Notes under the pieces: model-generated
Told to the model about the DNA's origin: nothing
The model's input: the letters and a program-made list of their open reading frames with translations, nothing else
Databases searched by the model: none
Assembly (NCBI RefSeq): GCF_028368935.1
Contig: NZ_JAQNDK010000005.1
Location: forward strand, 124,001 to 188,000
Direction: 5' to 3'
DNA length: 64,000 bases
Source of the DNA: Sorangium aterium
GTDB lineage: Bacteria; Myxococcota_A; Polyangia; Polyangiales; Polyangiaceae
Translations under genes and position numbers: made by a program
Shown here: positions 42,927-46,670 of the stretch, in pieces
Layout of the letters: the number at the start of each line of letters is the position of its first letter
Numbering within the stretch: the stretch's first letter is position 1

Positions 42927-44189
42927 TCAGGCCTGGCGGCCGCGGTGCAGCTCGATCGCGGCCTGGATCTCCTCCTCGGACAGGATGTGGTCGGTGGCCT
43001 TGGCCTTCGCCAGGATGGCGTCGACGAGCTCCTTCGAGGGCTCGATCTTCCGCTGCCGGAGCCAGTAGTTCACGTTGGAGGCCCCGGACATGTAGCCCAC
43101 GCAGATCTCCTGCTTTCGCCCGAACATGCCGGCGGGGACGCCGGAGTAGATCCGGTCGGCCATCCAGGCGTCGCCCTTCGACTCGGCCTTGATGATGGCC
43201 GCCGCGTGCACGCCGGTCGCCGTGCGGAAGGCGTCCCGTCCGACCAGGGGATAATTGATGGGCACCTCCCAGCCGACCGCCTGCGCGGCCGTCGTGCAGT
43301 ACTCGAGGAGGTGGGTGAGGTCCTGGTGCTCGAGGAGGCCGAGGAGCTTCATGTTGAGCAGGATGAGCTCCATCGCGGCGTTGCCGACCCGCTCGCCGAT
43401 CCCGAGGGCGGTGCCGTGCACCCGGTCCGCGCCGAACTGGAGCGCCCAGATCGCGTTCTCGAGCGCGAGGCCGCGATCGTTGTGGCCGTGCCAGTCGATG
43501 CCGACCGACGCCCCGGCCCCCGCGACGATGGCCCGCGTGAAGTTGATGAGGTTGCGAACCCCGTCCGGCGTCGCGTGCCCGACGGTATCGCACAGGCATA
43601 GCCGGGACGCGCCGTGATCGATGGCGACCTTGAAGAGCGTCGCCAGCACCTCGGGGCGCGAGCGCGTCGTGTCTTCCGTGACGTAGGCGACGGGGAGCCC
43701 GGCCTTCACGCCCGCGTCGATCGCCGCGGCGCTCCGCTGCGCGATGAGGTCGACGTCCCACGCCTCCGCGAGCTGGCGGATCGGGCTCGATCCGATGAAG
43801 GCGTAGATCTCCACAGGGATCCCTGCGCGCTGGGAGATCTCGATCATGGGCGTGATGTCCGAGACGACCGTGCGGCCTGCGCAGGCGACGCGGAGCGGCA
43901 GGTTGTTATCGGCCACCTCCCTGCACATCCGGAGCACGTCCTCGAACGCCCGTTGCGAGCTGCCGGGCAGGCCGACATCGGCGATCTGGATGCCGATCTT
44001 GGCCATCAGGTGGAGCAGCTTGAGCTTGCGCTCGATGTTCGGGTCGGCGACCGATGGGTTCTGCAGGCCGTCGCGCAGGGTCTCGTCGAAGAAGCCGATG
44101 TTCTCCGGAATGACCCGCCCGACGCGCCCCACCTCGTTCCAGTCGTAGATCAGCTCGGTCGGGCGGGTACCGGAGGCAGCGATCGCCAT
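42927..44189 (-). CDS. LeuA/HMGL-family acyl-transferase or lyase (2-isopropylmalate/homocitrate synthase-like)
   Basis: A 420-residue TIM-barrel enzyme of the DRE-TIM superfamily. It has 'FFDETLRDGLQNPSV' (the D-E-T-L-R-D-G catalytic/metal motif), 'CDTVGHATPDGV' and the metal-binding H-x-H in 'IDWHGHNDRGLALENA', then 'GADRVHGTALGIGERVGNAAMELI'. LeuA-type enzymes condense acetyl-CoA with a 2-oxo acid. The protein lacks the LeuA C-terminal regulatory domain (usual length over 500), so it resembles short homocitrate, citramalate or re-citrate synthases. The substrate is undetermined. It is divergent from ccmF. A symmetric promoter element abuts the start codon. Confidence 0.8.
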   Translation of the reverse strand: MAIAASGTRPTELIYDWNEVGRVGRVIPENIGFFDETLRDGLQNPSVADPNIERKLKLLHLMAKIGIQIADVGLPGSSQRAFEDVLRMCREVADNNLPLRVACAGRTVVSDITPMIEISQRAGIPVEIYAFIGSSPIRQLAEAWDVDLIAQRSAAAIDAGVKAGLPVAYVTEDTTRSRPEVLATLFKVAIDHGASRLCLCDTVGHATPDGVRNLINFTRAIVAGAGASVGIDWHGHNDRGLALENAIWALQFGADRVHGTALGIGERVGNAAMELILLNMKLLGLLEHQDLTHLLEYCTTAAQAVGWEVPINYPLVGRDAFRTATGVHAAAIIKAESKGDAWMADRIYSGVPAGMFGRKQEICVGYMSGASNVNYWLRQRKIEPSKELVDAILAKAKATDHILSEEEIQAAIELHRGRQA

Positions 44190-44204
44190 GCACTATTATA
44201 GTGC
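44190..44204 (-). promoter_or_regulatory. Palindromic -10 element/operator directly before the start codon
   Basis: On the minus strand the 15 bases GCACTATAATAGTGC end immediately before the ATG at 44189. They form a palindrome (GCACTA/TAGTGC arms around three bases) and contain a consensus TATAAT -10. With five bases between TATAAT and ATG, transcription would start at or beside the A of the start codon, giving a leaderless mRNA. A repressor binding the palindrome would block RNA polymerase. No good -35 is seen. Confidence 0.6.
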
Positions 44205-44375
44205 GCCGCGCTCGACGCCGGGCCTGAAACGAAGCTCTTCCGGGGCTCTCGACATGACGCACGGCGCAGGTGAAGACGCAAACGTTTTCGACCACGCACC
44301 ACGCACCACCCACCACGCATCGCTGCGGTGCGCTGGCCCTGCGCGCCTGGCAAGCCTAAGCTTGCGACCACGACG

Positions 44376-46670
44376 ATGTGGCAATCCCTACCTGAGTTCG
44401 GGACCGGCGTCCTTTACGCCATTCTGGTGACCGCGGCGTACACCTTCGCCGTCGGGCTCGCGTCGGCGCGCGGGCGGCCGCGGCTGCTCCAGGCGGCGCG
44501 GCTCGGCGCGTACGGCACGATCGCGCTGGTCGGCCTCGCGGTTCTCGTGCTGGCGTACGCCTTCGTCAGCCACGATTTCCGCATCGCCTACGTCGCGCAG
44601 TACAGCGACAGGTCCATGAGCACGCCGTACCTCATCGCGGCGCTCTGGGGCGGGCAGGACGGCTCGCTGCTCTGGTGGATGTTCCTGACCGCGCTCTTCT
44701 CGGGGACCTGCGTCATCTGGCTGCAGCGCCGGTATCTGGAGCTCCAGCCCTACGTCATCGCGACGCTGATGAGCGTCCTCATCTTCTTCTCCGCGCTGAT
44801 GATCTTCGCGGTGAACCCGTTCCGGACGAGCGTGGCGGGCGCCCCGCTCGACGGCAACGGGCTGAACTACCAGCTGCGCAACTTCTACATGATCATCCAC
44901 CCGCCGAGCCTCTACATCGGCTTCACGAGCGCGGCGGTCCCGTTCGCGTTCGCGATCGCCGCGCTCGCCACCGGCCGGCTCGACAGCGAGTGGATCGTGG
45001 CGACGCGCAAGTGGATGCTCTTCTCCTGGCTGTTCCTCTCCATCGGCAACGTGCTCGGGATGCTGTGGGCCTACGAGGAGCTCGGCTGGGGCGGCCCGTG
45101 GGCCTGGGATCCGGTCGAGAACGCCGCGTTCCTCCCGTGGCTCACCGCGAGCGCTTACGTCCACTCGACGATGATCCAGGAGCGCCGCGGCATGCTGAAG
45201 GTGTGGAACGTCTCGCTCATCTGCGGGACGTTCTTCCTCACCATCTTCGGCACCTGGCTCACGCGGTCCGGCCTCATCGCGAGCGTCCACTCGTTCGCCC
45301 AGTCCGGCATCGGCATCTGGTTCGTCGGCTTCATGGCCGTGATCGTGGCCACGTGCACCGCGCTGATCGTCTACCGCCTGCCGCGGCTGCGCAGCGACGG
45401 GCAGTTCGAGTCGATGCTGTCGCGCGAGGCCGCGTTCCTCTTCAACAACTGGGGCCTCTTCAGCATCATGATCTTCATCGCGGTCGCGACGGTGTGGCCG
45501 CGCATCAGCGAGTGGCTGCTCGACCAGAAGTCGACGCTCGGGCCGACGTTCTACAACATGTGGCTGCCCCCGGTCGCGCTCGTGGTCTTCCTGCTCATGG
45601 GCGTCGCGCCGCTGCTCGGGTGGCGGAAGACGTCGCCGGAGCTCTTCCGGAAGAGCTTCCGCTGGCCGGTGCTGGTCACGGTCGTCACGACGGCGCTCCA
45701 CCTCGTATTCGGGAAGCGGGTGGGCTTCGCCCCGTTCGTCGCCGTGGACCCGATCTACCCCGGCCAGCTCGGCGACGCGCTCGCGAAGCTCGCGTCGACC
45801 TACCCGTTCTTCACGGTGGCCATCGCTGCGTTCAACGTCGCCGTGGTCGTGCAGGAGTTCGCCCGCGGCATCGCGGCGCGGCAGAAGCGCGGGAAAGAAC
45901 CGCTGTTCGCCTCCTTCTACAACCTGATCGCCAGGTCGAGGCGCCGCTACGGCGGCTACATCGTGCACGTCGGCATCGCGGTGATGTTCCTCGGGTTCGC
46001 CGGCCGCGCGTGGGGCGTCGACAAGGAGATCAGCCTCCACCCGGGCGAGTCCGTGCAGCTCGAGGAGTACCGCCTCACCTACGCCGGCCCGCGCATGGAG
46101 GTCGACAGCGAGAAGCGGATGGTCTTCGCCGACCTCGACGTCGAGCGCCACGGCGCGCCGGTCGGCCGGATCAGCCCGGCGAAGTTCATCTACAAGGCGT
46201 CCCCGGAGGCGCCGTCGACCGAGGTCGCGCGGCACATCACCGTCAAGAACGACCTCTACGTGATCATCGGGATGGCGAACCCCCAGACGAAGGTCGCTTC
46301 GTTCCAGATCCACGTGAACAACCTGATCTCGTTCATGTGGTTCGGGGCGGGCATCCTCATCCTGGGGGCGCTCGTCGCGATGTGGCCCGACATCGCGCTC
46401 GAGGAGGCCGGCGCGTTCGGCTATGTGCGGGCGGCGGGCTCCGTCACCGCCTCCGTCGTGTTCGCCTTCCTGCTCGCGGGCGGCCCGTCGCAGGCCTACG
46501 GGCACACCGTCCAGGAGGGGCTCGGGCGGCCGGTCTTGCTCGCGCCGGGCGCGGCGGACGGCGACGTCCGCGCCCCAGGCTCCGACGCGTCGGTCGATCC
46601 CGGGCGGGCGCCCGCGATCGGTGCCATGCTCCCGACCGCTGTCGACTCGAGGCAGCCGGCGTTCGAATGA
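44376..46670 (+). CDS. ccmF: Cytochrome c maturation protein CcmF (heme lyase)
   Basis: A 764-residue polytopic membrane protein that attaches heme to apocytochrome c with CcmH. It has the WWD heme-handling signature 'WGGPWAWDPVENAAFLPWL' (residues 238-256) and the family's 'WGGQDGSLLWWMFL', 'NYQLRNFYMIIHPPSLYIGF' and 'TWLTRSGLIASVHSFAQSGIG' segments with conserved His ligands. A periplasmic domain ('GVDKEISLHPGESVQLEEYRLTY') precedes the last membrane helix. About 60 extra hydrophilic residues follow at the C-terminus, longer than usual. It is the first gene of an operon; the next gene overlaps by 4 bp. Confidence 0.96.
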   Translation: MWQSLPEFGTGVLYAILVTAAYTFAVGLASARGRPRLLQAARLGAYGTIALVGLAVLVLAYAFVSHDFRIAYVAQYSDRSMSTPYLIAALWGGQDGSLLWWMFLTALFSGTCVIWLQRRYLELQPYVIATLMSVLIFFSALMIFAVNPFRTSVAGAPLDGNGLNYQLRNFYMIIHPPSLYIGFTSAAVPFAFAIAALATGRLDSEWIVATRKWMLFSWLFLSIGNVLGMLWAYEELGWGGPWAWDPVENAAFLPWLTASAYVHSTMIQERRGMLKVWNVSLICGTFFLTIFGTWLTRSGLIASVHSFAQSGIGIWFVGFMAVIVATCTALIVYRLPRLRSDGQFESMLSREAAFLFNNWGLFSIMIFIAVATVWPRISEWLLDQKSTLGPTFYNMWLPPVALVVFLLMGVAPLLGWRKTSPELFRKSFRWPVLVTVVTTALHLVFGKRVGFAPFVAVDPIYPGQLGDALAKLASTYPFFTVAIAAFNVAVVVQEFARGIAARQKRGKEPLFASFYNLIARSRRRYGGYIVHVGIAVMFLGFAGRAWGVDKEISLHPGESVQLEEYRLTYAGPRMEVDSEKRMVFADLDVERHGAPVGRISPAKFIYKASPEAPSTEVARHITVKNDLYVIIGMANPQTKVASFQIHVNNLISFMWFGAGILILGALVAMWPDIALEEAGAFGYVRAAGSVTASVVFAFLLAGGPSQAYGHTVQEGLGRPVLLAPGAADGDVRAPGSDASVDPGRAPAIGAMLPTAVDSRQPAFE

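Follow-up and report, generated by a model that had tools for sequence, protein, structure and literature searches.

Our study examines the sequence in front of a gene for an HMGL-like enzyme in Sorangium aterium, within a window (by which we mean the whole 64,000-nucleotide stretch of DNA analysed) from a genome of 13.47 Mb. Comparison with related sequences makes it likely, in our judgement, that the site is the core promoter of this gene, an ordinary and well-conserved leaderless promoter, and that the palindrome lying over it is accidental rather than an operator. The message probably begins at the start codon itself, in an arrangement that appears to have been kept in many relatives of the species.

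Results

Sequence and setting of the site

The enzyme gene lies on the minus strand (42927-44189) and encodes 420 amino acids. Its product is of the DRE-TIM, isopropylmalate/homocitrate synthase type, matching PF00682 with 152.6 bits against a cut-off of 29, and its best match in the PDB is the homocitrate synthase 6ktq (E 1.2e-33). No NCBIfam equivalog reached its cut-off for this protein; the best match there, to a subfamily model, scored 183.7 bits against 517.

Directly adjoining the ATG (44189-44187), the minus strand reads GCACTATAATAGTGC at 44190-44204 (plus strand: GCACTATTATAGTGC). This 15-mer is perfectly palindromic, its 7-bp arms flanking a single central base (GCACTAT-A-ATAGTGC), and it holds a TATAAT hexamer at 44195-44200 that is separated from the ATG by a gap of 5 nt (44190-44194). 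The first-pass annotation had described a symmetric 15-mer with a perfect -10 hexamer abutting the ATG, and had called such a hexamer rare in this DNA; the sequence is as described and the rarity is borne out, with one TATAAT in the window, counting both strands, and seven in a 1.264-Mb sample of the genome that includes the window (71% G+C). While TATAAT is rare here, palindromes of this type are common, with 20 perfect 7-1-7 inverted repeats in the window, 19 of them besides this one, and 332 in the 1.264-Mb sample. Because TATAAT is itself nearly self-complementary, a striking palindrome that spans a -10 box may arise by accident.

The -10 box is kept in all six Sorangium sequences that we compared, as TATAAT in ours and TATACT in the other five, where the gap to the ATG is 6 nt. 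The stretch CGGCGCACTATA (44197-44208, minus strand), comprising the left arm and the first part of the -10 box, is invariant in all six.

Conservation of the -10 box

Homologous loci numbered 112 at collection; two without a match to the anchor motif (L130 and L136) were dropped and the rest were reduced to 85 distinct loci, 79 of which could be scored because an in-frame ATG lay no more than 75 nt away and the upstream sequence was long enough. Start codons were assigned by a rule blind to the hexamer: of the in-frame ATGs lying no more than 75 nt from the conserved DWN motif, the one furthest downstream was taken. With starts so assigned, 37 of the 79 loci have a TATANT that ends 5-9 nt short of the ATG, the gaps of 5, 6, 7, 8 and 9 nt being represented by 2, 20, 10, 2 and 3 loci, respectively. 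Shuffling each 60-nt upstream stretch 500 times, a control that ignores the kinship of the loci, gave a mean of 0.056 and a maximum of 1. Among the 40 gap positions listed there is one further occurrence of TATANT outside gaps 5-9, and the reversed control word TNATAT turns up once across the 40 listed positions.

The broader pattern [TC]ATANT, which admits the CATANT of the Labilithrix group, is present at gaps of 5-9 nt in 50 of the 79 loci, as compared with a shuffle mean of 0.19 and a maximum of 2, kinship again being ignored; all 16 loci with identities under 70% lack it in that position. The free fifth base of the hexamer is C in 40 of these 50 loci, the other five positions being fixed by the search and uninformative, and the hexamer persists while the flanks are too diverged for alignment. 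The gap of 5 nt in our sequence is at the short edge of the distribution, shared only with L079 (2 of the 37 loci).

Two further observations concern individual groups of homologues. Seven loci, several of them titled Labilithrix (L090, L092, L099, L104, L111, L113 and L115), carry GGCATACT where TATACT would stand, with the spacing to the ATG unchanged; this Labilithrix-type group is an entire clade whose -10 box begins with C. So ce26 carries two extra copies of the enzyme gene elsewhere in its genome (L040 and L046, both counted among the 85 distinct loci), which are 83-84% identical to ours and have no -10 box before the ATG.

A predicted leaderless message

With the -10 box so close to the ATG, the transcript is expected to start at the ATG: a sigma-70-type box ending 5 nt before it (6-7 nt in most relatives) would place the 5' end of the RNA on the first base of the start codon or immediately beside it, and 70S ribosomes would translate the resulting leaderless message without a Shine-Dalgarno sequence. 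From the spacing of the box and the pattern described by Zheng et al. 2011 (PMC3160421), we predict a start at position 44189 on the minus strand (the first base of the ATG), give or take about 2 nt; because the gap is shorter than the usual 6-7 nt, RNA synthesis could begin 1-2 nt into the ATG. Read in frame, the sequence directly 5' of the ATG is TAA TAG TGC, and the stops TAA TAG (44193-44198, minus strand) mean that translation cannot begin further upstream. A single start codon precedes the conserved DWN motif.

What would be looked for in a leaderless gene is thus largely present here: a TANNNT hexamer ending about 5-9 nt before the start codon (TATAAT, gap 5), a start codon that is certain, and no Shine-Dalgarno word at normal spacing in the upstream sequence. 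Across the 79 loci the words GGAGG, AGGAG and GAGGT at gaps 4-10 account for three hexamer placements in total. In our own genome, Shine-Dalgarno words peak at gaps 4-8 before ATG, where each gap has 31-40 of them; at gaps 16-30 the figure is 6-16. No TTGACA-like -35 box accompanies the hexamer, TTG standing at a spacer of 16-18 in just two of the 50 loci; a sigma-70 scan of 43900-44500 returned no promoter-like site, and no conserved upstream column was found over the 50 loci. The proposal of the first-pass annotation that this promoter yields a leaderless mRNA therefore stands as regards the placement of the -10 box, conserved in 37 of 79 loci, and the exclusion of an upstream start codon by the two in-frame stops; the transcript start, like leaderless translation, is something that we infer.

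The genome-wide setting was taken from the same 1.264-Mb sample, with 593 gene-like frames in which all in-frame ATGs within the initial 40% of the frame were counted, so that the following are not gene counts. TANNNT occurs before ATG 11, 12, 9 and 14 times at gaps of 6, 7, 8 and 9 nt, against a mean of 2.8 at gaps 14-30, and before GTG 11 and 10 times at gaps of 6 and 7 nt, against a mean of 1.9. The reversed control T-N3-AT is raised near the ATG as well, with 31 occurrences summed over gaps 6-9 and 5.4 per gap at greater distances; general A+T richness therefore accounts for some of the TANNNT signal. In the whole genome, TATAMT-N5-7-ATG is found in 15 places, against nine for its control, and six of these sites lead into a clean frame of at least 100 codons, the HMGL-like gene among them.

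Leaderless genes form an established class. In bacteria, Zheng et al. 2011 (PMC3160421) describe TANNNT about 12 bp before the start as a mark of such genes, with the signal in 8 of 33 delta-proteobacterial genomes and in a mean of 15.8% of genes. Our site resembles the genes described there in its hexamer, in its distance (the first T is 11 nt before the ATG here and 12 nt in the sister species), in having no Shine-Dalgarno word at normal spacing, and in belonging to a high-G+C host of delta-proteobacterial lineage. It differs in that the box is near-consensus, TATAAT or TATACT, where that work reports a degenerate TAnnnT for high-G+C genomes, in being conserved across many Polyangiales homologues, and in that its transcript start is a prediction. 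A search of the open-access literature returned no myxobacterial transcript-start map and nothing on leaderless mRNA in the group.

Symmetry of the site across genomes

The symmetry behaves differently from the -10 box. The left arm is kept in all five other Sorangium genomes examined and the right arm is missing in all five: after CGGCGCACTATA they read CTCAGAGC (three sequences), CTCGGAGC or CTTGGAGG before the ATG, and ATAGTGC is found only in ours. Among 108 family genomes searched, the palindrome is present in one, our own, where it occurs once. The first-pass annotation had seen in it an operator with a dedicated regulator and had suggested searching the genome for GCACTA-N3-TAGTGC upstream of other genes. 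That pattern occurs at one place in the 13.47 Mb, with no second site and no regulon. Allowing up to three mismatches brings in eight other places, all with three mismatches, and the totals (self included) of four forward and seven reverse matches are below the 18 and 19 of a reversed-pattern control.

The other 36 loci with TATANT match at most five of the seven pairs at the same centre, and dyads across the hexamer (arm 5-7, loop 0-8) are distributed over the 50 loci as they are with shuffled flanks. A dyad score equal to that of our locus arises 0.12 times per shuffled-flank set of 50 loci. By these counts, the conjunction of palindrome and -10 box beside the start codon exceeds chance only through the conserved -10 box; the symmetry is not conserved.

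No transcription-factor domain was recognised in a Pfam scan of 16 neighbouring frames (17 with the gene itself), which represent part of the window's frames and include two that exclude each other as genes because they overlap on one strand. These neighbours comprise enzymes, CcmF, CcmH, ClpB, GyrB, DnaN and others; ClpB also scores above the cut-off for the Sigma54_activat model, via its AAA domain. An operator might be recognised by conservation of the palindrome in orthologous promoters, seen in none of the five sister species, or by further genomic sites or a nearby regulator gene; the scanned genome and the 16 frames yielded the one site and no such gene. A dedicated regulator acting here appears unlikely because the right arm is not in the sisters, the palindrome is in 1 of 108 genomes and the dyads are at shuffle level. 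As a candidate, an operator or regulon was rejected on the single palindrome in our own genome and on its absence from the 107 others of the family.

Origin of the right arm

The differences between our right arm and the commonest sister form, one deletion plus two substitutions, all bring ours to an exact copy of the left arm; the right flank would thus have changed in this lineage from TATACT-CAGAGC to TATAAT-AGTGC. One deletion and two substitutions placed at random in the 8-nt sister arm, an ancestral state read off the sister species and not reconstructed on a tree, produce an exact arm copy with a probability of 6.5e-4. The pairing of the sister arms themselves, 4 of 5 (GCACT/AGAGC, in three of the five species), is at chance level. 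The simplest route would be a template switch copying the left arm into the right arm. Template switching at imperfect inverted repeats is described as making the repeats more perfect, with the changes arising in one step (PMC7202029), and our case would be similar in that an imperfect inverted repeat may have become perfect and arm copying would explain the clustered substitutions and indel. Unlike the mutations described in that work, ours is known through the comparison of species, its ancestor is assumed from sister sequences and its arms are short. The right arm has the look of a template-switch copy of the left arm, a mutational route that we deduce from the comparison of species, and the palindrome is probably a mutational accident and not a repressor site.

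The divergent ccmF gene

The gene on the other side of the intergenic region is ccmF (44376-46670, plus strand), assigned to the heme lyase CcmF/NrfE family by PF16327 and PF01578, with TIGR00353 below cut-off. Of 80 named loci, 13 share the neighbourhood of HMGL-like gene and ccmF, and these 13 loci with a ccmF match, together with the window, make up the 14 ccmF loci that we compared. The sequence CCTAAGCT (44355-44362 here, plus strand) lies 8-14 nt before the ccmF ATG in all 14; TAAGCT at 44357-44362, 13 nt before the ATG in the window, is a probable separate -10 box of ccmF. By eye, TGGCC stands about 18 nt further upstream of CCTAAGCT in Sorangium and Polyangium sequences, and the region is a candidate for a second conserved short-leader promoter. 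The intergenic region measures 190 bp here (start triplet included), against 366, 401, 427 and 459 bp in four sister Sorangium sequences, and contains repeated ACCACGC-like units within 44205-44375. We considered that the ccmF promoter might have been lost through this shortening, and rejected the idea since the box is intact.

Discussion

The symmetry of the -10 box can be read in other ways, all of which we judge to be improbable. It might make the site a bidirectional promoter that also fires towards ccmF, the plus strand offering TATTAT and TATAGT. Pseudo-symmetric promoters of this kind are described as ubiquitous in prokaryotes (PMC12825309), CACTATA (TATAGTG on the other strand) is invariant in all six Sorangium sequences and ccmF is divergent in every one of them. 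No second promoter is needed for ccmF, however, because its own CCTAAGCT is conserved at 14 of 14 loci, this one included, and over the 50 loci the box does not keep its symmetry. The site shares with the bidirectional promoters of PMC12825309 the -10-like hexamers on both strands at the same place; it differs in that the divergent gene has its own conserved box and in that two-way use here is hypothetical. Weak plus-strand initiation at the symmetric box is possible; regular firing towards ccmF we regard as unlikely. It is quite doubtful, too, that a fresh template switch turned the leaderless promoter into a working symmetric core promoter, bidirectional or serving as the operator of one gene.

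Little credence can be given to a newly evolved operator at which a single-target repressor blocks the promoter. A perfect 7-1-7 repeat over the -10 box is where a bound protein would obstruct RNA polymerase, and a score this high appears just 0.12 times per 50 loci with shuffled flanks; against this stand the single genomic site, the occurrence in 1 of 108 family genomes, the right arm absent from all five sisters, the 16 scanned neighbours devoid of a transcription-factor domain, and the 19 other perfect 7-1-7 palindromes in the window. A one-gene regulator encoded elsewhere in the genome is possible. We find it equally hard to credit that the transcript starts further upstream and carries the palindrome as a hairpin over the ribosome site. 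The minus-strand RNA does fold GCACUAUAAUAGUGC as a hairpin, but the region is no more stable than its shuffles, with a z of -0.59 and 48 shuffles out of 200 that equal or exceed it, the hairpin is absent in the sister species and no Shine-Dalgarno word at normal spacing was found there. For want of excess stability over the shuffles, a leader hairpin was rejected.

Taken as the core promoter of the HMGL-like gene, the site would represent a well-supported leaderless promoter kept over much of a myxobacterial order. Its palindrome suggests that symmetry over a -10 box, however eye-catching, can be an accident of one species. Were the template-switch palindrome in use after all, it would be a regulatory site made in one mutation.
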